From a virus: a stretch of 24,282 bases of DNA. A program made the position numbers and the translations under genes. The DNA lies in IMG/VR virus record IMGVR_UViG_3300048548_000591, positions 1 to 24,282 of that record, one strand, 5' to 3'. Of this stretch, positions 1,472 to 24,282 are shown piece after piece (position 1 is the first letter of the stretch; each line of letters opens with the position of its first letter). The notes beneath the pieces were generated by a model. The model saw only the letters and a program-made list of their open reading frames with translations. It ran no database searches and was not told where the DNA came from.

Positions 1472-4402
1472 CTATCCACATTGAAAAGCTAAAGCCGTTG
1501 CGTCTGAAACTGATATTCCACTTCCACCACCACCTCCGCCAGAAACTGTCTGCCAAGATGGTGCTGAGCCACTACCATTTGATGTTAATACTTGTCCGCT
1601 AGAGCCGTAATTCGTTCCACCGATTCCGATTGCTCCATCATGTGAAATTCTAACTTTTTCACTATTTCCAACATGAAATCGTATGTCTGCTCCTGCTCCA
1701 CCAGAATCGCTATCATCTGCTGATAATAATAAGCCATCACCATTTGATCTAATTTTGTGGTAATAAGATTGACCGCTAACAGATAGTCTTATTCCATCAG
1801 AACCACTACCTTGAATTTCTAATTTATCAGAAGGATTAGCCTGTGTAATACCAACTTTTCCACCAAAGTTAGCATTCATTGTGCTATCACCGGCTAAAGT
1901 TAAAATGGTTCTATAGGTAGACCCATCATAACTTGAAAATGCATGATTATTGGTTGTTGTCCTAGTATCTTGGAAATAACCTAATCCGTTATAATTAGTA
2001 TCTTGTAAAGTTACTCCACCGCTACTATTTTCATCAAGGTTACTTATTATGCCTTGAGAATGTCCATTGTTATCTGAATAAACCGCAACATTTAAACCTA
2101 CTGATTGACCATTCTTTTTAAATTCTGCAACATTTGCCGTTGTTGTGCCACCAGTCGCAGATGAGGTAGTTGCAGACAATTTAGCATTAATATCTAATTC
2201 ATCATCAATAGTAACTGTCGAGCCACTAGATGTTATCGTACTACCGCTGAAACTTATATCGCCGGTTGAACTACCACCGCCAGAAACAGTTGCCCAAGAT
2301 ACAGTCCCATTTCCGTTGGTCTGTAAAACTTGATTAGCCACACCATCCGAGGCAGGTAATGTAAATGCGTTAGCAAAAGTAATAGCACCAGTCGAGGCTA
2401 CTTTAAGTAATTCAGAGTTAGAATTATTCTTAAAAACTATAGGATTAGTGCCTTGCTGAATCTTAAAGATTGTCTCATTGCTCGCATGGTACATATAGAA
2501 ATCGTTGCCAGTTCCTAAAGCAATTGTCGTATTATCATCTGCCTTTAAAATATTACCGGCTGAATACCAAACAAGATTACTATTATTTCCGTTTAATTGA
2601 AAATCTATGCCGTAGTTATTCGCGCCATCAAATGTAAACATTGAGTCTACATGGACATTTGCTGAATTATTAAATGTTACATTTCCGGTAAAAGTGCCAC
2701 CGCTAGTCGGCATTCCACTTGAACCACCACTAGCAGTTTGCCAAGTAGGTGCGGAACTAGAACCATTAGATGTTAATACTTGACCACTTGTGCCATAATT
2801 CGTTCCAGACAATCCAATTTGACCGGCTGACCCTATGCGTAATCTTTCTCCATCATTAGTGCCAAAACGTAAAGCATTTACATCATGTTGATAAGTTAAA
2901 TATCCAATGTACTGTTCAGATCCAGATGTACCATCAGAAAAGTAAATATTGTTTTGTCCGGAGTTAGTTGAGCGTATTGTAATTCCAGTATTTCCACTAT
3001 CAGAAACAGTTAATTGATCTCCATTATTAGCTAATCCAGATGTAGTAGTACCAATTAGCAAATCCCCAGTAAATGTACCGCCAGTTTTAGGCATATATGT
3101 AGAGGTTGCGCTAGATTGAGTTAAATAGGTGCTAGATGCATTGGATTGAGTTAAGTAAGTTGATGATGCATTAGACTGCGTTAAATAAGTTGATGATGCA
3201 TTAGACTGCGTTAGATAGGTACTAGACGCGGAAGATGTTGTTAAATAATTACTTAAATCGCTATGATTGGCTAATCTAACCCAACTACCATTATGAGAAA
3301 ATAATCCTGCGCCTAACGAGTGATCGTGAATGAAACAACCATGATATGTACTTGCATTTGGGTATGAAGTGCTATTTGCGTACATATTCGCATATAACAT
3401 TTTGCCGGTTGTCGTAATGTCGTTGCTACCCATATCCAAATCACCGGTCATCGTACCGCCGGCTAATGGTAACTTGGTTGCTATTGAATTAGTTACTGTA
3501 GTTGAGAAGTTTGCATCATCACCTAGTGCAGATGCTAATTCATTTAATGTATTTAAAGTTGATGGAGACGAGTCAACAAGGTTGCTAATCGCCGTTGATA
3601 CAAATTCCGTACTCGCTATCCGTGTTGTGCTATTACCGGCAGTCTGAGTTGGTGTAGTTGGGTTGCCGGTTAAACTCGGAGAGCCAAGAGGCGCGTATGT
3701 ATTAGATATCGATGTAGTAGTTGAATAAGCACTTAAATCTACTGTTGGAGTTTGCCAAGTCGGTGCAGAGGTTGAGCCATTACTTGTTATGACTTGTCCA
3801 GATGTTCCGTAGTTTGTGCCACCTAGACCCCATGCTCCATTTCCAGAACCACCACCATTAATTCTTAATTTTTCTAAACCATCAACGGCTAGAATTACTC
3901 TAGAATTATTGGCTTGATTCATTCCGTCTGCAAGTAGCCAAAGCGTGCCAGATGCGTCACCTTGAACTTGAACAATTGTAGATGATGGCGCAGTAGTATT
4001 TCTTAAAGTGATTGCCGGATCGCTAGATTTATAAACATTTATTCCGGTTACTTCGATATTATCAACAAAAGTAGTTTTTCCATTTTGGTCGGCTACCACC
4101 GATCTACTTGCGGGACTTGTTATAAATACTGATTTAGTCCCAGACCCAAAATTAACCGCATTATTACTATTTGAGGATTCATAAACTGTTGTCCTCGTTA
4201 ATGTACTATTACCCGATGTCCAAGTTCCTAAACCGGTTTCCCAATTACCATTTTCATCTGTAATAGCATATGTTGTTGTATCGCCGTCTGTTAAAGCACT
4301 CGCAAATGTTTGAAAGCCTGCGCTTGTACCGGATACAACCATATTAGTAGTGCCGGTTGTGGTAGAGGGTTGGTTTACTCGGTCTTTTACATTAAACCCC
4401 AT
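1472..4402 (-). CDS. Large repetitive tail fibre protein
   Basis: At 976 residues this is the longest protein in the window. It begins MGFNVKDRVNQPSTTTGTTN, with a Shine-Dalgarno-like AGGTT before the ATG. Residues about 312-328 (LPLAGGTMTGDLDMGSNDI), after a TLNELASALGDDANFSTTV helix, match the phage tail-fibre repeat type common in marine and T4-like fibres. Residues about 388-431 are tandem 10-residue repeats (S-N-A-S-S-T-Y-L-T-Q). A GTNYGTSGQVLTSNG...APTWQ module appears three times (near residues 193, 531 and 928), with a weaker fourth (ANQVLQTNGNGTVSWA). The C-terminus is a poly-Gly linker then SDATALAFQCG. This fits an elongated, probably trimeric host-binding fibre. It is followed by smaller tip-like genes. 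Specificity is unknown. Confidence 0.88.
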   Translation of the reverse strand: MGFNVKDRVNQPSTTTGTTNMVVSGTSAGFQTFASALTDGDTTTYAITDENGNWETGLGTWTSGNSTLTRTTVYESSNSNNAVNFGSGTKSVFITSPASRSVVADQNGKTTFVDNIEVTGINVYKSSDPAITLRNTTAPSSTIVQVQGDASGTLWLLADGMNQANNSRVILAVDGLEKLRINGGGSGNGAWGLGGTNYGTSGQVITSNGSTSAPTWQTPTVDLSAYSTTTSISNTYAPLGSPSLTGNPTTPTQTAGNSTTRIASTEFVSTAISNLVDSSPSTLNTLNELASALGDDANFSTTVTNSIATKLPLAGGTMTGDLDMGSNDITTTGKMLYANMYANSTSYPNASTYHGCFIHDHSLGAGLFSHNGSWVRLANHSDLSNYLTTSSASSTYLTQSNASSTYLTQSNASSTYLTQSNASSTYLTQSSATSTYMPKTGGTFTGDLLIGTTTSGLANNGDQLTVSDSGNTGITIRSTNSGQNNIYFSDGTSGSEQYIGYLTYQHDVNALRFGTNDGERLRIGSAGQIGLSGTNYGTSGQVLTSNGSSSAPTWQTASGGSSGMPTSGGTFTGNVTFNNSANVHVDSMFTFDGANNYGIDFQLNGNNSNLVWYSAGNILKADDNTTIALGTGNDFYMYHASNETIFKIQQGTNPIVFKNNSNSELLKVASTGAITFANAFTLPASDGVANQVLQTNGNGTVSWATVSGGGSSTGDISFSGSTITSSGSTVTIDDELDINAKLSATTSSATGGTTTANVAEFKKNGQSVGLNVAVYSDNNGHSQGIISNLDENSSGGVTLQDTNYNGLGYFQDTRTTTNNHAFSSYDGSTYRTILTLAGDSTMNANFGGKVGITQANPSDKLEIQGSGSDGIRLSVSGQSYYHKIRSNGDGLLLSADDSDSGGAGADIRFHVGNSEKVRISHDGAIGIGGTNYGSSGQVLTSNGSGSAPSWQTVSGGGGGGSGISVSDATALAFQCG
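3111..3240 (-). repeat. 30-bp tandem repeat inside the fibre gene
   Basis: About four head-to-tail 30-bp units start at 3121, 3151, 3181 and 3211, with partial copies on both sides. Each encodes the 10-residue unit S-N-A-S-S-T-Y-L-T-Q. The two central units are nearly identical at DNA level and the outer ones have drifted, a sign of slippage or unequal exchange that can change fibre length. The frame is open throughout, so this is a coding repeat, not a CRISPR. Confidence 0.9.
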
Positions 4403-4812: not shown

Positions 4813-5433
4813 CTAAAAACTCCTTATTCTAAGTTGTAAATTACTCGCGGAGTGCCTTGTAGAATCTGACTCTCCTCGAATTGCGTTTATTGAATTTTGA
4901 TAAGCAGACCCCCAAACTGCTAATCTTTCATCCTCTCCGATATAAGGCGAGGCTTGTAATAAAGACCCATATAAGTATGCGTCTGGGGACATAGCTAATA
5001 ACCAATTACTTGTATTAGCATCACTAAGAGCCGGAATACGTTGATAGTACAAAATTTCTCCGGTAAAATTTGAATTGGGAGTTGGATGTACTTCTATTAA
5101 ATCACCTACGTGTGAATAATATTCCGGTACACCGGTTGCGTTATCATTATCATCTCTGTATTTAGCAATCTCTTCCGGAGATGTTTGCTTTAATAATGTT
5201 AAAGATGCGTTATTTAAATGAAACCTAACAGTCTGCAACCAATCTGGAGGAGTCGCAGAATATTGGGTTTCAATGATTGCGGTGCTTTTGCCAATCATCT
5301 TATAGTGCCTTAACTCGCGATTTAACTGAGCCTCTGCTAAAGTTATAAAATCTGGAATGGTAGCCGTTAAGTCTGATCTATTAAGCCAGTCTGCTATACT
5401 AGTTTTTAAATTTGCGTAACTATCTAAAGCCAT
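4813..5433 (-). CDS. Head-tail adaptor protein, SU10-type
   Basis: The product has 206 residues from the ATG at 5433. A TTG one codon upstream would also be in frame, but TGATG coupling with the preceding gene favours the ATG. The N-terminus (DSYANLKTSIADWLNRSDLTA) followed by IPDFITLAEAQLNRELRH, and the central Y-Y-x-H-V-G-D-L-I-E-V-H-P pattern, are typical of phage adaptor (connector) proteins of the SU10/phiEco32 type, which sit below the portal and link it to the tail. Late helices (SPDAYLYGSLLQASPYIGED, AVWGSAYQNSINAIRG) also match. It is encoded downstream of portal, scaffold and capsid genes, the usual order. The family assignment is from recognised sequence patterns, not a search. Confidence 0.8.
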   Translation of the reverse strand: MALDSYANLKTSIADWLNRSDLTATIPDFITLAEAQLNRELRHYKMIGKSTAIIETQYSATPPDWLQTVRFHLNNASLTLLKQTSPEEIAKYRDDNDNATGVPEYYSHVGDLIEVHPTPNSNFTGEILYYQRIPALSDANTSNWLLAMSPDAYLYGSLLQASPYIGEDERLAVWGSAYQNSINAIRGESDSTRHSASNLQLRIRSF

Positions 5434-7882: not shown

Positions 7883-8142
7883 CGAGGTGCTAATCCTTTT
7901 CTTTTAGTTTCTCTTTTATCGAGCATTTCCTTATCTGTAATTACGTTGATAAGTTCATACTCGATGGATGAAAGAGCCAAAATGATCGAGTGTGCCTTTT
8001 CTCTGGTCTCGGTATCATCTTTGCTCGAGGACAAAAATGCGTGTATTTGAGCATCTTTGACTTTCTGCATAGCATCTCTAAAAGCCACAGAATTTAATAA
8101 TTCTTTTGCTTGATTTGCTTTAATTTCTAGCGACTTGTCCAT
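7879..8142 (-). CDS. Small helical protein between portal and scaffold
   Basis: The start is placed at ATG 8142 (MDKSLEIKANQAKELLNSV) because it has a good Shine-Dalgarno (GCAGGAAAG) and overlaps the portal gene by 23 bases; a longer version from 8178 lacks this signal. The product has 87 residues, all helix and strongly charged: FRDAMQKVKDAQIHAFLSSS, ALSSIEYELINVITDKEM and a basic tail. No cysteines or membrane segment. Small helical genes between portal and scaffold occur in related marine phages; function unknown. A minor assembly chaperone is possible but unsupported. Confidence 0.7.
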   Translation of the reverse strand: MDKSLEIKANQAKELLNSVAFRDAMQKVKDAQIHAFLSSSKDDTETREKAHSIILALSSIEYELINVITDKEMLDKRETKRKGLAPR

Positions 8143-10201
8143 TATTTCTTTCCTGCGCCTGCATTCGTTTAATTTCATTTATGTCTACTTGATATCCGTG
8201 TTTGGATAATAATTCGCCTGCTTTTAATAATAGATTTTGATCTAATTCATCTCGTTTTAGATCGTCAGCTAGCATCATTTTTTCTCTTTCTAATCCATAT
8301 TTTGTCATGTCGCTTTGCATCTTAGCATTCGCTCTTATTTGTTCAGTTTGCATAACGGCCGTTGCCGGATCGATTGGTTGAGGTTGGTTTTGAGCTTGTT
8401 GTTGAGCCATCGCCATCATCTGTTGCTCTATTTCTGGATTCATTGGACTAAAATACCTATCGGCATTTCTTATACCGCTACCCGCTAATATATCTTGCAG
8501 GCAATTCCGTATCATCGATAAATTTACCAATCCGTTGCCAGATCCATATCCTTGATAAATAGTCTGTTGTATTTGTAATATTTGCTGAAGAGTCATTTGC
8601 TTTTCTTCAACTTTTCCAGTCCCTAATCCCACCGAAACTTGTAAATCTAAATGGGCATTCCATGATTTAGGATCTACCGGTATATAATTATTATTCATAC
8701 GCATTACCTCATCACCTTTTCTATGCTTAATAATGAGGTTCATCATTTTTCTAAATAATTGAGTCATACCGCCTTCAGCTAAATTACGAGCTATAGTTTC
8801 AACTTGTCCTTGAGCCGTAGCTATATGATGGTCGACCGCCGTTTTTGTAGTTGATTGTAAAACATCTGGATTTAATCCTACACTAGACGCACTAACACCA
8901 ACTTTTTGGTCGATGGTCTGATCTAAGTATTGCATCGCACCTAAAGTGTTACCGGCGGTAAATGGTATTGTTAGAGGCTGAATAGTATTGGGTTGTCGTG
9001 TACGGATAACCGCACCAATTTCATTATTAAGCACATCATCGAGATTAACTTGGCTATCAACTACACTTAATCTAGGTGAATTACATAATGCTATATTATC
9101 TAAAACTCCCCTTAAACAAGAAGTACTCGCATCTTGGTCGTCAAATAACATAGCAACCACACTTTGACCAAATACAGTATGAGGCTCTGGATCACACTCA
9201 AAAACTGCAAAAGGTTGCTGATCGCAGGGCATATAATTTAACAATTTGTAATTACTACCGCCCATAATAAATTGGTGTAAAACCGGCACTCCAGTGCCGT
9301 CCACATCAACTTTCATATAGCATTCAGTTATACCTATTCTTTTAGAGGTAATATCTATATTATTTTGAGAGTCGTTTTTATCCTCTGTAAAACCGGTTCT
9401 CGCGAATAACTCAGCATCATTTAATGAATCGTCACTTATAGAGTCTAAATGGTGAATATCGTCAAAATTAAAACCTTGTTCAACTAATTCTCCGACTGTT
9501 TTATTAACTCGATGCCCTACTATATAAGCAGTTTCAACATCTTTTGCATTTCTATCACAAAACCACTCCTCTGGTGGGACAGAGTCAATTCTACAATCGC
9601 CTGCCGGTGTTATTCGTTGGATTTTCGCATCGTGAACAGATTTTTCAATTTCTTGCTGAGTTGCTTGATCCATTTCCATAGAAACTGTCTGATTATGGTT
9701 AAGTACTGTAACATTTTCATCGGCAACCAGATAATTAAACTCAATATCTGAAAGACCGCTATATGTATGTGTTTCAGTTTTGCTAAAATCTTCATAATAT
9801 ACCTTTAAAATACCTAATCTTTTTACCAAACTATCTTGAAAAGCATTACTTAATAGCTTGAAATAGTTTAGTTTATTTAATTTGTAGTGGACGTACTTGG
9901 TCATCTGCTCTGCAACCGGCACATCTTCCGCCATATTGGGAGTAAATTCTACCGGCGGAGCTTGTCCTAGAAAAACACGAAGAAGTGAAGGTTTAATTGC
10001 ACGAACTGCGTCTCTGCACTTGGTCGCAACTACCTTGCTCCGACCTTCCTCGACCCCAAGTCGTGTTTTTCCATCATAATATTGCTGAGAAAGTACTCTT
10101 TCTGGGACTATTTCACTGTCAATAAAGTCGACTGCGTCCTTTATCGCCTCACTGACCAGACTTTCTAGCTGACCATCCTCTAAAGGAGTCAATTTTGCCA
10201 A
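8120..10201 (-). CDS. Portal protein, SU10-like, TTG start
   Basis: The product has 693 residues, typical for portals of SU10/phiEco32-like phages. The N-terminus (KLTPLEDGQLESLVSEAI, then a SEIVPERVLSQQYYDG pattern and GRSKVVATKCRDAVRAIKPS) is the conserved opening of this portal type. Later landmarks are LKVYYEDF (about 124-131), VPPEEWFCDRNAKD and the long helical section GGMTQLFRKMMNLIIKHR. The C-terminal 120 residues are Gln/Met-rich coil, as for portal barrels. The first possible start after an in-frame TAG is TTG at 10201, with GGAG seven bases upstream, so translation very probably starts at TTG. The dodecameric portal forms the DNA gate and terminase docking site. Confidence 0.88.
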   Translation of the reverse strand: MAKLTPLEDGQLESLVSEAIKDAVDFIDSEIVPERVLSQQYYDGKTRLGVEEGRSKVVATKCRDAVRAIKPSLLRVFLGQAPPVEFTPNMAEDVPVAEQMTKYVHYKLNKLNYFKLLSNAFQDSLVKRLGILKVYYEDFSKTETHTYSGLSDIEFNYLVADENVTVLNHNQTVSMEMDQATQQEIEKSVHDAKIQRITPAGDCRIDSVPPEEWFCDRNAKDVETAYIVGHRVNKTVGELVEQGFNFDDIHHLDSISDDSLNDAELFARTGFTEDKNDSQNNIDITSKRIGITECYMKVDVDGTGVPVLHQFIMGGSNYKLLNYMPCDQQPFAVFECDPEPHTVFGQSVVAMLFDDQDASTSCLRGVLDNIALCNSPRLSVVDSQVNLDDVLNNEIGAVIRTRQPNTIQPLTIPFTAGNTLGAMQYLDQTIDQKVGVSASSVGLNPDVLQSTTKTAVDHHIATAQGQVETIARNLAEGGMTQLFRKMMNLIIKHRKGDEVMRMNNNYIPVDPKSWNAHLDLQVSVGLGTGKVEEKQMTLQQILQIQQTIYQGYGSGNGLVNLSMIRNCLQDILAGSGIRNADRYFSPMNPEIEQQMMAMAQQQAQNQPQPIDPATAVMQTEQIRANAKMQSDMTKYGLEREKMMLADDLKRDELDQNLLLKAGELLSKHGYQVDINEIKRMQAQERNNGQVARN

Positions 10202-14176: not shown

Positions 14177-15594
14177 TATGCTACTCCTCTCAAGTTTCGT
14201 TTAAGTGGTTTAGACCAACGACTTCTATGACCGCCTTTTAAAGCCACCACATTATCGTGAGCCATTGTTAAGCAAAGAGCATCCGCCCTATCCGGAGAAC
14301 TTAATCCTCGTTTACGCATCTCATCTTTGCTTTCTATTTTCGCCTTACCATTTGAGGCAAAACTATATTTGACCGCAATCATCTCATTAATTAACTTATC
14401 ATCGCGTGGTAGTTTACAGTCGCGGTTTTCTAAAAATGCTTTTAACTTAAACCATAACTCGGCTCTTAAATTAGTATAATTAGACTTCATGGCCGGTGAC
14501 TCAGAAACATTTATGCCGACCGCCGGTAATCCTAACTCAGCTAAACGATCCACACATCCAGAGCCTAAACCTATCGAGTCTATAAATATTGTTTCCGGTA
14601 AATCAGTCGGTGACATAATAGCGTCATATTCGGCTTTAACACGACCGCATAACTCCATTAAATCAAGTCCCTTCCAAGTCTGTACCTCTATAATAGTATT
14701 CCCGCGCCTTTTACATAACGCAGATGAATCGTTACCAAATCGCGATACATCTAATCCCCAGACAACTGTGGCGACCGGACTTTCCTCGACATCCCTATTA
14801 CGAGCAGAGTCGCATAAATGATAAGGTATAATCGTATCATCATCGACTTTAGGAAATTCACCTAAAACTCTAACCGCAAACTGCGTACTCTCAGAGCCAT
14901 ATCGCTCTTTCATTTCCTCGATAAATTCATCCGTTACTAACGGACTATCCATACAAGACCATTTACGTCGCCACCAACTTGAGGTCGGACTCATATGCGT
15001 TTCGTAAAATGTACCGGAATTTTTCGTTGGGTTGGATAATAATAAGGTTACACAGTTATGCCCGCTCATCGAACCCGCACTCGCCTCAAAGGTTTTTTCG
15101 TGGACACCGCTTGCCTCGTCGACGACTAATAATACAGATGCCCTATTACCGCCGGATGCGTGAACACCGGCTAGTGCCTCTGGTTGTTCCGGACGAGAGG
15201 TTTTTGCCGATATAAAAGCCTCACTCGGTGCGGAGACTAATTCGATCCGATCCGACTTTACGTTAATCAGTGATCGAAGTGTGTCCGGTAATTTGGTGGT
15301 GTTCGCTTTCAATTCGGCAAAAAGTGCGTCAAATAATTGGGTACTTGAAGGCGCAGTTGTCACTATCTTGACCGGATATCTGGTTAATAAGAACCATAAC
15401 ATTAACCAACTAGCGCAACTTGATTTCCCAGTTCCATGCCCGCTCCGGACACTTAACCGGCGAGTTCCTTTATTAACCGCGTTTAATAACTCGGCTTGAT
15501 AATCAAACGGCTCTACACCTATAACCTCTTTAACAAATAATATAGGGTCGTCCCCATACCTCTCCATAAAATCTTCAAAAGGATTAGTGGACAT
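14176..15594 (-). CDS. terL: Terminase large subunit
   Basis: The 472-residue product has all terminase landmarks. ATPase domain: Walker A GHGTGKS at residues 52-58 (after RRLSVRS), Walker B VLLVVDE at 154-160 with catalytic E160, and a coupling motif LLLSNPT (184-190). Nuclease domain (RNase H-like): WGLDVSRFGNDSSA with D282, TIFIDSIG with D339, and SSPDRADAL with D435/D438. It cuts the concatemer and drives DNA into the prohead through the portal. ATG 15594 overlaps the gene before it by 11 bases, and the stop overlaps the next micro-gene. No intron or split is seen. Confidence 0.93.
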   Translation of the reverse strand: MSTNPFEDFMERYGDDPILFVKEVIGVEPFDYQAELLNAVNKGTRRLSVRSGHGTGKSSCASWLMLWFLLTRYPVKIVTTAPSSTQLFDALFAELKANTTKLPDTLRSLINVKSDRIELVSAPSEAFISAKTSRPEQPEALAGVHASGGNRASVLLVVDEASGVHEKTFEASAGSMSGHNCVTLLLSNPTKNSGTFYETHMSPTSSWWRRKWSCMDSPLVTDEFIEEMKERYGSESTQFAVRVLGEFPKVDDDTIIPYHLCDSARNRDVEESPVATVVWGLDVSRFGNDSSALCKRRGNTIIEVQTWKGLDLMELCGRVKAEYDAIMSPTDLPETIFIDSIGLGSGCVDRLAELGLPAVGINVSESPAMKSNYTNLRAELWFKLKAFLENRDCKLPRDDKLINEMIAVKYSFASNGKAKIESKDEMRKRGLSSPDRADALCLTMAHDNVVALKGGHRSRWSKPLKRNLRGVA

Positions 15595-16202: not shown

Positions 16203-16293
16203 AATGCCGGTTAAAATAACTTGCCGTAAAAAATTATGCAAAAAAATTTTCTTGACGGAAAAAAGAGTCGGCGCGTCTATACGTTTTTACTAG

Positions 16294-16314
16294 TACATTT
16301 ACGTGCGAAATGTA
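16294..16314. repeat. Inverted repeat near terS (7-bp stem)
   Basis: TACATTT, a 7-base spacer (ACGTGCG) and AAATGTA form a perfect inverted repeat. It follows an 8-base palindrome TACTAGTA (16288-16295) and precedes two G-runs. In leftward transcripts it would lie in the leader of terS. It may be a hairpin, a protein site or part of a packaging signal; none of these can be decided from sequence. Confidence 0.5.
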
Positions 16315-16407
16315 TGGGGGATGGGGGGGATTTCTGCGGAATCCTGCCAGATTTTAGCCATTTTCCGCCCTATTTTGTAGCATAAATACTACATTTAGGT
16401 GTGGTAA

Positions 16408-16437
16408 ATTATGCCATAAAAAGCGTAATGAAATCAA
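16408..16437 (-). promoter_or_regulatory. Leftward sigma70-like late promoter
   Basis: Read on the minus strand: TTGATT (16437-16432), an 18-base spacer, then CATAAT (16413-16408) preceded by TGG, an extended -10. The start of transcription would be near 16401, about 200 bases before the terS ATG, so it could drive the whole late operon down to position 1. The -35 and -10 are each one mismatch or so from consensus. Confidence 0.6.
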
Positions 16438-16459
16438 TGGTTTATAAAGGTAAAAGTAA

Positions 16460-16475
16460 CATAATGTGTATTATG
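16460..16475. promoter_or_regulatory. Palindromic site upstream of the late promoter
   Basis: CATAAT, GTGT, ATTATG: a perfect 6-bp inverted repeat, centred about 66 bases upstream of the predicted late start site. That spacing fits an activator site. The flank AAAAGTAACATAATG (16452-16466) matches 14 of 15 bases at 22519-22533, at the start of the ribbon-helix-helix gene. Confidence 0.45.
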
Positions 16476-16564
16476 CGCCCTTTAATTATTATTTACGTCT
16501 CACGAGCGCGATGCCGTCCGTTAGTGCTTAATTCCTACCTCAGACGCAATAATAAGTCCAGATA

Positions 16565-17344: not shown

Positions 17345-17848
17345 TTAAAATGGTATCGGGTCGTCATAAAAGTTTTCGGTGTGCAACATAGAGCCGGCAA
17401 AACTTGATTTAATTTTAATAACTGCAGGTGGTATAGACTCGACTAATCCGTCTAGAGTTATCCACGCCTCTGTTTCGTCCCATTTATCCGGTAACTGACT
17501 TAGTCGCTCAACAACTTTAACTGTTACATCACTAACTTGACTATGCCTTGTCGTCCAAACATTATGCGGTATAACTTTAACTTTATTCCTAATGCATTCA
17601 GCGTCGACAACTTTCCACGCTCTTATTAGAGCCTTGCCTCGTTTTAAGATAGCACCGCCATCTTTTTTACGTTTAGCCTCTTTAAATAAAGCCTCTTGTT
17701 TTAAAAACTTTTCTTTTAAATGTTTATCGACTCCATTTAAGCACTCATCTGCTTTTCCATATCTAGCCTCCATCATCGATGCTATTTGTTTTAAATGGTC
17801 GATTAGTGCCTCTTCTTCTGTATCTGTATATCTACTATATAGTCCCAT
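17345..17848 (-). CDS. Unknown helical protein ending in an SSB-like tip
   Basis: The product has 167 residues. The first ~80 are charged helices (EEEALIDHLKQIASMMEARYG, KEKFLKQEALFKEAKRKKDG); the middle is mixed (AWKVVDAECIRNKVKVIPHN, VWTTRHSQVSD); the C-terminus is NFYDDPIPF. The final D-D-x-I-P-F is like the conserved tip of bacterial SSB (D-D-D-I-P-F), which recruits replication and repair enzymes. No OB fold is evident, so this may be a mimic or a partner-recruiting protein rather than an SSB. The ATG at 17848 has GGGAT upstream and lies next to the iteron cluster. Function unknown. Confidence 0.7.
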   Translation of the reverse strand: MGLYSRYTDTEEEALIDHLKQIASMMEARYGKADECLNGVDKHLKEKFLKQEALFKEAKRKKDGGAILKRGKALIRAWKVVDAECIRNKVKVIPHNVWTTRHSQVSDVTVKVVERLSQLPDKWDETEAWITLDGLVESIPPAVIKIKSSFAGSMLHTENFYDDPIPF

Positions 17849-17860
17849 TCTTTTATCCCT

Positions 17861-18001
17861 ATTTACTGCGGATTTACTGAGGATTTACTGCGGATTGACC
17901 GGTTAAAGTGCGCACCGCACCGCACTAATCCGCCCTAAAGGGAAAAGACCCTTTAGTGCGGTAATAGTAGCGGACGCGTTACACTGCGGACTTAGTGCGG
18001 T
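17861..18001. repeat. Iteron-like repeat cluster, candidate origin or operator
   Basis: Three tandem 11-mers of TTTACTGCGGA (17862-17872, 17873-17883 with one change, 17884-17894) are followed by related motifs: ACCGCACTAA (17919-17928, inverted), TTAGTGCGGT (17953-17962 and 17992-18001) and ACTGCGGA (17983-17990). A perfect 8-bp hairpin CTAAAGGG / CCCTTTAG (17935-17956) sits inside. The shared core is A(C/G)TGCGG. This fills the gap between the LexA-like gene and the next gene. Clustered repeats like this are typical of replication origins or multi-site operators. Neither the hairpin nor its surroundings has a T-tract, so a plain terminator is unlikely. Confidence 0.7.
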
Positions 18002-18216
18002 CATAGGAGAGTTACACCTCTCGATGCTCCGGCTATAAAATCTAAATATCCATCCTCTTTTAAAGTTTGACGATGTTCCCTTATCGTTTTTGTTGTTAAG
18101 GGCATTCCCTCGTCACTTTCCATTTCCTCTAAAGTGGGACAGTATTCATTAGCCTCAATAAACTGCCGATAATAGTCATATACTAATTTTTGATTTTTAC
18201 TTCTAAACTGCCTCAT
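18001..18216 (-). CDS. LexA-like winged-helix DNA-binding protein
   Basis: The 71-residue product resembles the LexA N-terminal DNA-binding domain and lacks the LexA protease part. RSKNQKLVYDYYRQFIEANE gives helix 1, CPTLEEMES helix 2, PLTTKTIREHRQTLKEDGYL the recognition helix and start of the wing, and AGASRGVTLL the final strand. It is encoded 1 base after the exonuclease stop, and its own stop overlaps the last copy of the repeat cluster downstream. It could bind that cluster as a regulator or replication protein; this is inference from proximity. Confidence 0.7.
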   Translation of the reverse strand: MRQFRSKNQKLVYDYYRQFIEANEYCPTLEEMESDEGMPLTTKTIREHRQTLKEDGYLDFIAGASRGVTLL

Positions 18217-18217
18217 T

Positions 18218-19228
18218 TTAATAACTCCAATCGGATTTAAATGTTAAGGTTTTCTGCCGTTCCGTCCTCGCCGGACGTGGTGGTACGACTTTCTCGGCGG
18301 ATGCCTTATAATGTCTATTCTTCCGCTCGACCCTAAATATTTCCTGCCCTATTTCGTCATATAGGACACCGATCTCGTGGAGTCCTAATTTCTCCACCAT
18401 CTCAGCCTCTAAGCCGGATATTAACTCTTTATTAACTCGGTCTAGTTTTTTAGCCTCATATAATTCTAGAGCTACCTCTCGGTTATTCCCGCCTAAATCG
18501 ACCGGCGGTAAATCCTCTTCCGCCGTTCCGTAAACTTTAACCGCATCCTTTAGGTCAGCCACCGGATAGTAATCGATATTCTTCAATCGGCGGTAAAAGT
18601 CTTTGCCGGCAGTTTCGTATTCGTTAATGATGTTCTCGTCTATTTCAAAAACATATATAACTAACTCGTTGCCATTAAATAAGACCGATACTGTTCCCCA
18701 TTTAGCTCCGTAGCATTTCATTTGCATCTGGAGTTGGTCTCGTCCTAACCATCGAGGCAGGTCGGTATAGATGTCGTAACTCATATGCGTTTTTGCCTCG
18801 CATATTCCTACTCCATCCATTTTTATTTTTTCCTGCCCTTGAGGTAGTCTTATTTTAGGTTTAGAGCCGGTAGGATTTTCGTCCGGATAAATAAGGCCGT
18901 CATCTAGCGGTTTAAGTAATCCGTCTATCGAGCAGTTTATAAAGTCTAACGGCTCATCCTTGCCATACCATCCATAAGGTATAGTTATATCGGTTTTAGG
19001 CACGCAGTTTAATAATTCGGCGGTGTCTGTTATAACTTCTGCCTCTCGCCTATTACCATATTTCATTTTCTCGTTTTCCGGCTCACTTGGTACGGACTCG
19101 AGGTTTTTCTCTCTAACAACTAACTTCTGCGCTAGTATATCATTTGGAGTTTTATATTTACTTATTTTATTTACTGCTATCGCCTCAGTAGAGGATAAGT
19201 AATATGCCGGTGTTATCTTTCCAACCAT
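18218..19228 (-). CDS. PD-(D/E)XK exonuclease, YqaJ/lambda-exo-like
   Basis: The start is placed at ATG 19228, overlapping the preceding TAA, with GGGG upstream (336 residues); a GTG three codons earlier is in frame but less likely. Nuclease motifs (numbered from that GTG): KYGNRREAEVI (E65), FINCSIDGLL (D105), GICEAKTHMS (E147-x-K149), then RDQLQMQMKCYG, matching the E...D...E-x-K...Q order of YqaJ/lambda-exo nucleases. These produce single strands for recombination or process host DNA. The C-terminal third is helical and charged. It may work with the annealing or ssDNA-binding protein on the right arm. Confidence 0.75.
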   Translation of the reverse strand: MVGKITPAYYLSSTEAIAVNKISKYKTPNDILAQKLVVREKNLESVPSEPENEKMKYGNRREAEVITDTAELLNCVPKTDITIPYGWYGKDEPLDFINCSIDGLLKPLDDGLIYPDENPTGSKPKIRLPQGQEKIKMDGVGICEAKTHMSYDIYTDLPRWLGRDQLQMQMKCYGAKWGTVSVLFNGNELVIYVFEIDENIINEYETAGKDFYRRLKNIDYYPVADLKDAVKVYGTAEEDLPPVDLGGNNREVALELYEAKKLDRVNKELISGLEAEMVEKLGLHEIGVLYDEIGQEIFRVERKNRHYKASAEKVVPPRPARTERQKTLTFKSDWSY

Positions 19229-19425
19229 TATCCCCACCCCAATCCAATTAATAAAATAATTGTAATTGTGAGGAAAAGTAGTATACTCTCTCCTAATAGG
19301 ACAAACAGTCTAAACAGACTGCCCTCTCTATTAAGCCTCATCAATATATAGTGGTAATTCTCTTGCCAGACAGAATATATATTATGCGAACAACTCTGAC
19401 ATTTCCTATAGATGTTATTTATCAT
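19228..19425 (-). CDS. Small C-terminally anchored membrane protein
   Basis: The product has 65 residues: a CQSCSHN cysteine pair near the N-terminus (C9, C12), a short basic part (LMRLNREGSLFRL) and a strong hydrophobic C-terminal segment (about 41-63, FVLLGESILLFLTITIILLI). Start ATG 19425 has a GAGGTT ribosome site. The stop overlaps the exonuclease ATG. It looks like a tail-anchored membrane protein; function unknown. An isolated C-x2-C pair is too little to call a zinc site. Confidence 0.6.
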   Translation of the reverse strand: MINNIYRKCQSCSHNIYSVWQENYHYILMRLNREGSLFRLFVLLGESILLFLTITIILLIGLGWG

Positions 19426-22369: not shown

Positions 22370-22392
22370 GATTCTCTCTCCTTGTTATATAT

Positions 22393-22422
22393 ATTATATA
22401 GTAGTTTTGTAGTAAATTACAA
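22393..22422 (-). promoter_or_regulatory. Leftward early promoter with overlapping operator-like palindrome
   Basis: On the minus strand, TTGTAA (22422-22417), an 18-base spacer and a perfect TATAAT (22398-22393) give a strong sigma70-like promoter, start near 22386, a short distance before the first leftward gene. The palindrome TTGTA-N6-TACAA (22407-22422) covers the -35 and part of the spacer, a classical position for a repressor site. Confidence 0.6.
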
Positions 22423-22480
22423 GTATTACATATAACTTTTTTTGTTATTTATTTGGTTTAGGTTAATTACATAAAGCATA

Positions 22481-22486
22481 TATAAT
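22481..22486 (+). promoter_or_regulatory. Possible rightward -10 element
   Basis: TATAAT lies 30 bases before the first rightward ATG. The best matching -35 (TTTAGG at 22457-22462, 18-base spacer) is poor, so if used, this promoter may depend on an activator. ATGTTAC (22489-22495) and GTAACAT (22523-22529) form an inverted pair around the expected start site. The alternate reading, that AT-rich DNA produces this by chance, cannot be excluded. Confidence 0.4.
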
Positions 22487-22515
22487 ATATGTTACATACT
22501 AATTTTATATAATTA

Positions 22516-22713: not shown

Positions 22714-23059
22714 TCGTTCAAAACGTATCGGATACGCACTTGAATCGGCGGTGGTAAACTTATGGAAGTCATATGGTGTTCCCTGCAAGAGAGTTTTAGG
22801 GAGCGGTGCGTTTAAAAATTACTCAGAGGACTTAGCCTCAGACGTAAATTTAAATGGTTATAAAATCGAGTGTAAAAGACGTAAAAACGGCACTGGTTTT
22901 CAGACCCTTTATAAGTGGCTCGAACAAGATGAATCCTCGAGTCTATTAGTCCTTCAATCAGACAGAAAGCCAAGACTTTATGTAATGAAAGAAGATCAGA
23001 TGGTTCATTTCGCTAGAGAAATGGGCTGGATGGATAAACCGGAAAATAAAGGAGAATGA
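22706..23059 (+). CDS. Holliday-junction-resolvase-like PD-(D/E)XK nuclease
   Basis: The 117-residue product has KRIGYALESAVVNLWKSYG (E13), the loop VLGSGAFKNYSEDLASDVNL (D46) and YKIECKRRKNG (E55-x-K57), then FQTLYKWLEQ. This is the compact layout of archaeal Hjc-like and phage junction resolvases, in which E, D and E-x-K bind the metal. It should cut branched DNA formed during replication or recombination before packaging. It has a strong GGAGG and its start overlaps the previous gene by 8 bases. Placed in the rightward replication arm with the SSB-like and primase genes. Confidence 0.75.
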   Translation: MANRSKRIGYALESAVVNLWKSYGVPCKRVLGSGAFKNYSEDLASDVNLNGYKIECKRRKNGTGFQTLYKWLEQDESSSLLVLQSDRKPRLYVMKEDQMVHFAREMGWMDKPENKGE

Positions 23060-23061
23060 AT

Positions 23062-23604
23062 ATGGAATTAGGTTTATTATCAAGTGGTGACAGTAAATGG
23101 ATAGGTTTTAAACCATCAATAGGAATTTGGGAGGCTAGTGGCGAACAGATAGAATTAAAGCATTTTATCTTAGATCATATGTCCTTAAAGACCGGATGGA
23201 TACAAATCGCGTCTGGATCAGCACCGGATTGTCATTGGGATGAATCATTAGGAAAAGTTGGGAAACAACCATCCTCAGACCATCGGCGCGGATTTCAAGT
23301 GCAAGTCTATACTAAAGACGGCGGTTGGTATCAATGGCAACAAAACCAAGTTGGTGTTTTACAAGGTTTTAGTCCTTTAATGTCAGCAATTTTTGATAAA
23401 GCAAAAGACAATCCGGACAAAGTGCCGGTAGTAAAATATCTCGAATTTGAGGTTAATTCTAAAGGTAAAGGAACGACCAGAGTGCCTAAATTTGAGGTAG
23501 TTAAATGGGCTGACTATCCTAAAGACGCAGAGCCGGAGGTTCAAGCTGAGCCTGTCGCTGAACCGCCGGCGTCATCTCCAGACGATACTGAAGATTTGTT
23601 TTAA
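23062..23604 (+). CDS. Putative ssDNA-binding protein with acidic tail
   Basis: The start is placed at ATG 23062 because AAGGAG lies 7 bases upstream; an in-frame ATG at 23056 is only one base from it and too close. The product has about 180 residues: a beta-rich body (KWIGFKPSIGIWEASG, QIELKHFILDHMSLKTGWIQ), an aromatic stretch (RRGFQVQVYTKDGGWYQWQQ) and an acidic tail (AEPPASSPDDTEDLF). Acidic C-terminal tips ending in a hydrophobic residue are typical of SSB and T7 gp2.5-like proteins. Position before a primase/helicase supports a replication role. The OB fold itself is inferred. Confidence 0.55.
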   Translation: MELGLLSSGDSKWIGFKPSIGIWEASGEQIELKHFILDHMSLKTGWIQIASGSAPDCHWDESLGKVGKQPSSDHRRGFQVQVYTKDGGWYQWQQNQVGVLQGFSPLMSAIFDKAKDNPDKVPVVKYLEFEVNSKGKGTTRVPKFEVVKWADYPKDAEPEVQAEPVAEPPASSPDDTEDLF

Positions 23605-23654: not shown

Positions 23655-24282
23655 ATGATAGAAACCAACGCAAAAGATATATCTATAGCTTTACTCGGTG
23701 AGCCTAATGAAAAATTAAGCAAACCGACTGAGTTGCGGTGGGGGACTTTTGGGTCTTTATCAGTCGATTTAGAAAAAGGTACATATTTCAATCACGAAGA
23801 GCAGACTGGTGGCGGAATGGTCGAATTGATACGATCTACCGGCAAAGACCCTAAAATATTTTTAGATGAGATGGGTCTTAACGAAAAATTTGAAGTGCAG
23901 ACCACCGGCACTAAAGTTACGGCTCGTTATTTATATAAAGACGCGGATGATAAACCTTCTTATGAAGTTATCCGGTATGAGCCTAAAACATTCCGGCAAA
24001 GACGATTTGATTGTGAAACTAATAAATTCGTCCCTAATCTTAAAAATGTAACTCCCCTTCCCTACAATTTACCGGAAATTATTAAAAATCAAAAATCACC
24101 TATATATATCTGCGAAGGTGAAAAGGATGCCGACCAACTTATTAAATTAGGACTTTTGGCGACTTGTAATTCTGGCGGTGCAGGGAATTGGTCACCGGCT
24201 TTAAATAAATATTTTGCCGGACGTAAAATTATTATTTTACCGGATAATGATGAGGCGGGATTAAAGCACTCTCAATTAGTGG
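23655..24282 (+). CDS. TOPRIM primase/helicase, C-terminus cut by window edge
   Basis: The frame starts at ATG 23655 and runs off the window after 209 codons. An in-frame TGA lies just before the ATG. N-terminal part: ISIALLGEPNEKLSKPTELR, WGTFGSLSVDLEKGTYFN, GGGMVELI, as in phage primase-helicases with a degenerate zinc region. TOPRIM domain: PIYICEGEKDADQLIKLG (E154) and KIIILPDNDEAGLKHS (D197, D199), the metal-binding E and D-x-D. Product likely makes RNA primers and, if the missing part is a RecA-like domain, unwinds DNA. No ribosome site is seen because the terminator occupies the upstream sequence. Confidence 0.85.
   Translation, partial: MIETNAKDISIALLGEPNEKLSKPTELRWGTFGSLSVDLEKGTYFNHEEQTGGGMVELIRSTGKDPKIFLDEMGLNEKFEVQTTGTKVTARYLYKDADDKPSYEVIRYEPKTFRQRRFDCETNKFVPNLKNVTPLPYNLPEIIKNQKSPIYICEGEKDADQLIKLGLLATCNSGGAGNWSPALNKYFAGRKIIILPDNDEAGLKHSQLV

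Follow-up and report, generated by a model that had tools for sequence, protein, structure and literature searches.

The window analysed here is the whole 24,282-base virus record, which is probably a fragment. Most of its genes are encoded by the minus strand, and gene orientation diverges at ~22.4 kb. In minus-strand order, it contains genes for a YqaJ/RecE-type exonuclease and a LexA-type winged-helix protein, a repeat array, the SSB-tip gene, and genes for a 68-aa protein, a DUF6378 protein, TerS, and TerL. The exonuclease gene (18218-19237, minus strand; phrog_434, E 4e-24; PF09588, E 3e-4) belongs to the replication/recombination block. The winged-helix gene (18001-18216, minus strand) encodes 71 residues matching the Pfam domain LexA_DNA_bind (PF01726, E 2e-7). 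The SSB-tip gene (17345-17848, minus strand) encodes 167 residues and ends in DDPIPF, like bacterial SSB. The predicted model of the SSB-tip protein is of only moderate quality (pLDDT 70) and matched no PDB fold; its function is therefore read from the tip.

On the plus strand, a probable ssDNA-binding protein gene (23056-23604) directly precedes the gene of a toprim primase/AAA_25 helicase, the proposed initiator, whose N-terminal part (23655-24281) is cut by the window end. A homologue of the ssDNA-binding candidate precedes a RepA-type gene in locus L014, and an annotated ssDNA-binding protein gene before the helicase gene of cultured roseophages matches it by position. The helicase part shares 60-64% identity with the full-length helicases of L177 and L178, and AAA_25 was found by Pfam in all four helicases scanned, including that of L178.

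The repeat array spans 17861-18001. The motif ASTGCGG, picked post hoc, occurs exactly seven times in the window, once at 15075 and six times within the array (plus strand 17865, 17887, 17955, 17983, and 17994; minus strand 17920), compared with a maximum of two per 141 nt in 300 second-order Markov simulations. Nine sites are present on the two strands when the variants ACTGAGG, CCGCCCT, and CCGCTACT are counted. The minus-strand form of the unit is TCCGCASTAA, and its nine copies or near-copies start at 18000, 17989, 17973, and 17961, at 17930 and 17920 on the reverse strand, and then at 17893, 17882, and 17871. Several adjacent copies are spaced by 11 bp.

Three tandem 11-bp iterons, TCCGCAGTAAA, TCCTCAGTAAA, and TCCGCAGTAAA, lie directly upstream of the SSB-tip gene (17861-17896, minus strand) and were detected by TRF with a score of 65. 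An inverted iteron, ACCGCACTAA at 17919-17928, is overlapped by partial copies CGCACCGCAC (together 17911-17928, plus strand), and an inverted variant, TCCGCCCTAAA (17929-17939, plus strand), makes up the outer part of the dyad. The dyad element CCCTAAAGGG (17933-17942) is present in a single copy in the window. A hairpin, CTAAAGGG-AAAAGA-CCCTTTAG (17935-17956), occupies the middle of the array. The remaining minus-strand units are ACCGCACTAA (17953-17962), a degenerate iteron TCCGCTACT (17966-17974) whose core CCGCT is retained in L005, TCCGCAGTGTA (17980-17990), and ACCGCACTAA (17992-18001), which shares one base with the LexA-like stop codon. The cluster, tandem 11-mers, inverted copies, hairpin, and stop-codon overlap described in the first-pass annotation are thus borne out. 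Its picture of an otherwise gene-packed genome is not entirely so, as other gaps of ~320 nt (16242-16564) and ~145 nt (22370-22515) are present. Under an exact 6-mer statistic, the window array is borderline (p 0.067) because its copies are degenerate, and the case for the array therefore rests on conservation.

Three loci, L002, L003, and L004, are near-identical to the window and keep the motifs, their spacing, and the hairpin. The same features are kept in L005, in which the exonuclease and SSB-tip proteins are ~70% identical to those of the window. L005 also has the inverted copies, and its three tandem units share the unusual middle sequence of the window (TCCTCA, T variant). Its hairpin is one base pair shorter, and both arms carry the deletion, so pairing is kept. 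The first-pass annotation had proposed comparing repeat spacing in relatives and had named repeats that are absent or random there as the outcome that would speak against the cluster; the arrangement is instead conserved. The exact array pattern was confined to these four close relatives in IMG/VR and was absent from GTDB genomes. A scan of GTDB genomes by exonuclease alignment found no relatives, and a DNA similarity search against phages and plasmids returned nothing useful.

L178 bridges to more distant phages. It is 36% identical to the window in the exonuclease, 38% in the LexA-like protein, 40% in the SSB-tip protein, and 60% in the helicase. Directly before its SSB-tip gene lie three tandem TTCCTCAGTG units, a 9-bp hairpin, a partial inverted unit, and three direct units. 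This is the layout of the window with CCTCAG for CCGCAG (TCCTCAGT replacing TCCGCAGT). The LexA-like gene of L178 is 2.4 kb from the array, with other genes between them, and the array therefore goes with the SSB-tip gene rather than with the LexA-like gene.

Arrays of the same design are widespread. A first set of 80 loci was fetched by TerL alignment, with best matches 58-63% identical, and a blind search for repeat density found arrays with other words in the gap before a gene of 170-220 aa. The product of this gene ends in DDEIPF, DDPIPF, or EDDIPW, and DUF6378 and then TerS/TerL genes often come after it. The SSB-tip gene of the window is its predicted homologue: the protein was recovered by an HMM built without it (E 8e-4) and by profile-profile comparison with the family (P 1.2e-4), and the identity to L178 and the synteny with DUF6378 and TerS/TerL lend further support. 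Identity to far relatives is modest (13-22%). A second set of 80 loci encoding an SSB-tip homologue was then added. Among the 84 loci with sufficient upstream sequence, 77 carry a significant one-word array, with 5-12 copies of one 6-mer, upstream of the homologue (≤400 nt; p < 0.02, Markov null). The 77 exclude the window, L003, and L005, whose copies are too degenerate for an exact-word test. Some high-scoring repeat windows in other loci were discarded as coding repeats (tail fibre, pentapeptide).

Most arrays sit between an AAA_25 primase-helicase gene, just 3' of it, and the SSB-tip gene. The words vary by phage and include CCACAG, CCACAC, CCTCAC, CCGCAC, TTCTACA, TTCATACA, and TGCGTCA. 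The window shares with its relatives the CCNCAS word class, into which its words CCGCAS and CCTCAS fall, the array position, and a CCCTWWAGGG dyad.

The dyad is rare. Across all loci, the frequency of CCCT[AT]0-3AGGG is roughly one per 94 kb with the copies in arrays counted. In the window, L005, L090, the roseophages CRP-811, CRP-821, CRP-823, and CRP-831, and CRP-406 (position 396), its sole copy in the sequence lies within the array. Other relatives carry an AT palindrome in its place, for example TGCATATATATATGCA, which plays the same role. Many relatives have an AT palindrome at the array centre, whereas the window has the G+C-flanked CCCTAAAGGG hairpin.

Cultured roseophages carry such arrays as well. 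The array of CRP-811 and CRP-823 is built of 11 copies of CTACAAA and that of CRP-821 and CRP-831 of 10 copies of GTATAA; in these four phages it lies in the 175-186 nt between a RepA-type helicase gene and the SSB-tip homologue. A GCTGGAAA array lies at the 3' end of the helicase gene in CRP-406, a phage whose helicase differs from these and in which no SSB-tip gene was detected. The roseophage genome paper nowhere uses the words 'repeat' or 'intergenic', and no discussion of such an array was found in it (PMC12629253).

The array word tracks the helicase C-terminus and not the SSB-tip protein. Over 26 dereplicated loci, word similarity correlates with helicase C-terminal identity when the SSB-tip protein is controlled for (partial Mantel 0.71, p 2e-4), and only weakly with the SSB-tip protein (partial Mantel 0.28, p 0.02); these permutation p values ignore the relatedness of the loci. 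The clearest case, a natural exchange, is given by L104 and L091 on one side and L090, L099, L100, and L102 on the other. Their SSB-tip proteins are 91-96% identical (one pair 90%+), whereas their helicase C-termini are 14% identical and their words are CCACAGTT and TTTCTACA, respectively. Co-inheritance of helicase and array as a linked block could contribute to the co-variation. No Pfam or PDB DNA-binding domain was matched by sequence in the helicase C-termini. Their position, the co-variation, and a helix-turn-helix-like stretch seen by eye in CRP-406 suggest that they may nevertheless bind DNA. The helicases of L177 and L178 are the closest to that of the window and have C-termini alignable with those of CCNCAS-type helicases; the window C-terminus is presumably of the same type.

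An array next to replication genes, paired sets of sites around a dyad, and co-variation of word and helicase form the signature of an iteron origin and its initiator. We consider it probable that the cluster serves as a replication origin of the iteron type and that the phage's own helicase opens it; replication of this marine-type phage most likely starts here. As in iteron origins, short repeats are grouped in one noncoding region in both the window and its relatives. In the relatives, the repeats are also tied to replication genes and the initiator; for the window, this comparison covered adjacency to the SSB-tip gene.

Several initiator monomers would bind the CCGCASTAA iterons on either side of the central CCCTAAAGGG hairpin dyad. 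The initiator would be the primase/AAA_25 helicase, most likely acting through its C-terminal domain. It would open the DNA at the dyad and then assemble as a helicase on both strands. The SSB-tip protein would probably assist by contacting host readers of the SSB C-terminal tip. We infer initiator binding, strand opening, and origin activity from comparative sequence data.

Several features of the window count against an origin. Its helicase gene lies on the opposite strand, at least 5.6 kb from the array, and is cut by the window end; the centre of the array lacks the AT-rich palindrome of many relatives; and a ribosome-binding site closely follows the array, an arrangement expected of an operator. 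GC skew adds no support in this fragment. Its minimum, at ~22.4 kb, falls on the divergent gene boundary and not on the array, and the skew of the window reflects gene orientation. The detrended cumulative GC skew of four near-complete relatives weakly supports an origin, with the array at its 2nd-13th percentile; no such position is seen in MW202711, the roseophages, or the window. The origin proposed in the first-pass annotation is thus favoured by the conserved position, the arrays 3' of replicative helicases, and the co-variation of word and helicase C-terminus, but not by its suggested skew test in this fragment. The AT-rich intergenic region at the flip in gene orientation and GC skew (22370-22515) contains TATATAA repeats; it is a likely early promoter region and a fallback candidate for the origin.

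The array could alternatively be a multi-site operator, a transcriptional switch before the SSB-tip and downstream late genes that is bound by a phage regulator other than the helicase. The array is flanked by a winged-helix gene and the SSB-tip gene and shortly precedes a plausible ribosome-binding site, which fits such a switch, as does the 11-bp phasing, which would allow cooperative binding along one face of the DNA. An origin and an operator may also coincide. However, the region contains no sigma-70-like promoter, although phage promoters may differ, the word varies with the helicase C-terminus and not with the SSB-tip gene, and the CRP-406 array sits at a helicase 3' end in a phage with no detected SSB-tip gene. 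We regard an operator of this kind as unlikely.

The first-pass annotation had named the LexA-like protein as a possible reader of such an operator. Its gene adjoins the array and encodes a genuine LexA-type DNA-binding domain. The E. coli LexA half-site is TACTGT, which the plus-strand sequence TTTACTG resembles. However, the CTG is not conserved, with about half of the copies reading GTG, and the array lies downstream of the gene and not in front of it. The 2.4-kb separation in L178 disfavours this reading, and nearly all array-bearing relatives show no detectable LexA-like homologue. Control by this protein is therefore improbable, and it is probably the array's neighbour and not its binding protein. 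A small 'regulatory protein' of L014, considered as a candidate LexA-like homologue, proved not to be one.

A packaging (pac/cos) site read by the small terminase subunit is very improbable: cosB-type packaging sites are repeated, and the repeats here lie upstream of TerS/TerL on the same strand, but TerS is 1.6 kb away and has its own noncoding gap directly upstream, and the words vary with the helicase. The gap before TerS (16242-16564) contains minus-strand C runs (TCCGCAGAAATCCCCCCCATCCCCC) and is itself a candidate packaging or terminus region. Equally hard to credit is an RNA element, a riboregulator or terminator, in the SSB-tip 5' leader: the hairpin is conserved, with the compensated one-pair deletion in L005 and folding z scores of -2.9 and -2.3, but the repeat region has no gathering-level Rfam match and no T-run behind the G+C stem, as an intrinsic terminator would have, iterons lie on both strands and also outside the stem, and the arrays of relatives have sequence-unrelated words and dyads.

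The proposed origin resembles several known systems. The PICI origin follows the 3' end of the initiator gene and has an AT-rich region between two iteron sets (PMC6092414). Here too, two sets surround a central element, the word is specific to each element, and in most relatives of the window the array immediately follows the 3' end of the initiator gene. In the window itself, the helicase gene is on the other strand (23655), and the two sets flank the CCCTAAAGGG hairpin; an AT-rich centre is found in the relatives only. Unlike PICIs and SaPIs, these phages have their own capsid, portal, and terminase genes, an AAA_25 primase-helicase in place of the PICI Rep, and a conserved SSB-tip gene downstream of the array. 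In Vibrio PLEs, the RepA DNA-binding domain and the iteron origin co-vary, and swaps have been shown by experiment to be specific (PMC8263062). The modular swapping of iterons together with the initiator's DNA-binding domain is alike here, but PLE RepA is not a helicase and reads three ~30-bp repeats (PMC8263062, PMC7145576), and the specificity of swaps is experimental there and comparative here (PMC8263062).

More distant parallels are found in phage lambda and the plasmid RSF1010. The lambda origin is likewise a phage origin built of iterons, there with an AT-rich region beside them. The lambda iterons are contained within the O gene, whose product loads host DnaB, whereas the present array is intergenic and the phage encodes its own helicase. 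In L014, TGAACGTGCG repeats lie within the coding sequence of a repA-like helicase (4976-5150), which recalls lambda O. RSF1010 RepA-type helicases share the AAA_25/RepA-like helicase core. RSF1010 leaves iteron binding to a separate protein, RepC, whereas here the helicase C-terminus is the proposed reader.

The proposed origin family is large and, in the open-access literature, apparently unreported; its word switches each time the adjacent helicase gene is replaced. We tentatively propose a widespread marine-phage module composed of a primase-helicase, an iteron origin with a CCCTWWAGGG dyad, and the SSB-tip gene. In this module, the helicase C-terminus and the word would be swapped together between close phages and rapidly diversify origin specificities, possibly as an escape from origin-stealing satellites or origin-directed nucleases, and the SSB-tip protein would represent a new class of proteins that act at the origin to recruit replication proteins of the host. 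If so, replication origins would be located for a large phage group, cultured roseophages included, and the arrays would provide a natural data set for deducing from sequence the code by which a replicative helicase recognises DNA.

Individual loci depart from the common layout. In L059, L108, L109, L119, L133, L134, L156, L163, and L171, the helicase and the array are separated by ~800 nt more than in sister phages, and the array stays beside the SSB-tip gene. The helicase-array interval is thus an insertion hot spot; the extra sequence of L059 is a PAPS-reductase-like gene. In L037, L039, and L044, the distance from the array to the aligned SSB-tip start downstream is about 220-385 nt and includes a terminator-like hairpin with a T-run, so the array is probably more than a simple 5' leader. 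L042 has an AGGTGCA array with CCCCCTAAAGGGGG directly 3' of the primase-helicase gene (8126-8310), followed by a RuvC-like gene and not an SSB-tip gene. L219 (MW202711) contains two separate GGGACA arrays, at about 30326-30450 and 31750-31950. The array at 31.8 kb is upstream of the SSB-tip homologue, and that at 30.3 kb has CCCTAGGG and CCCTATAGGG dyads. In the window, a further tandem repeat of 3.5 copies of 30 bp (3112-3217) lies in a tail-fibre-like gene.
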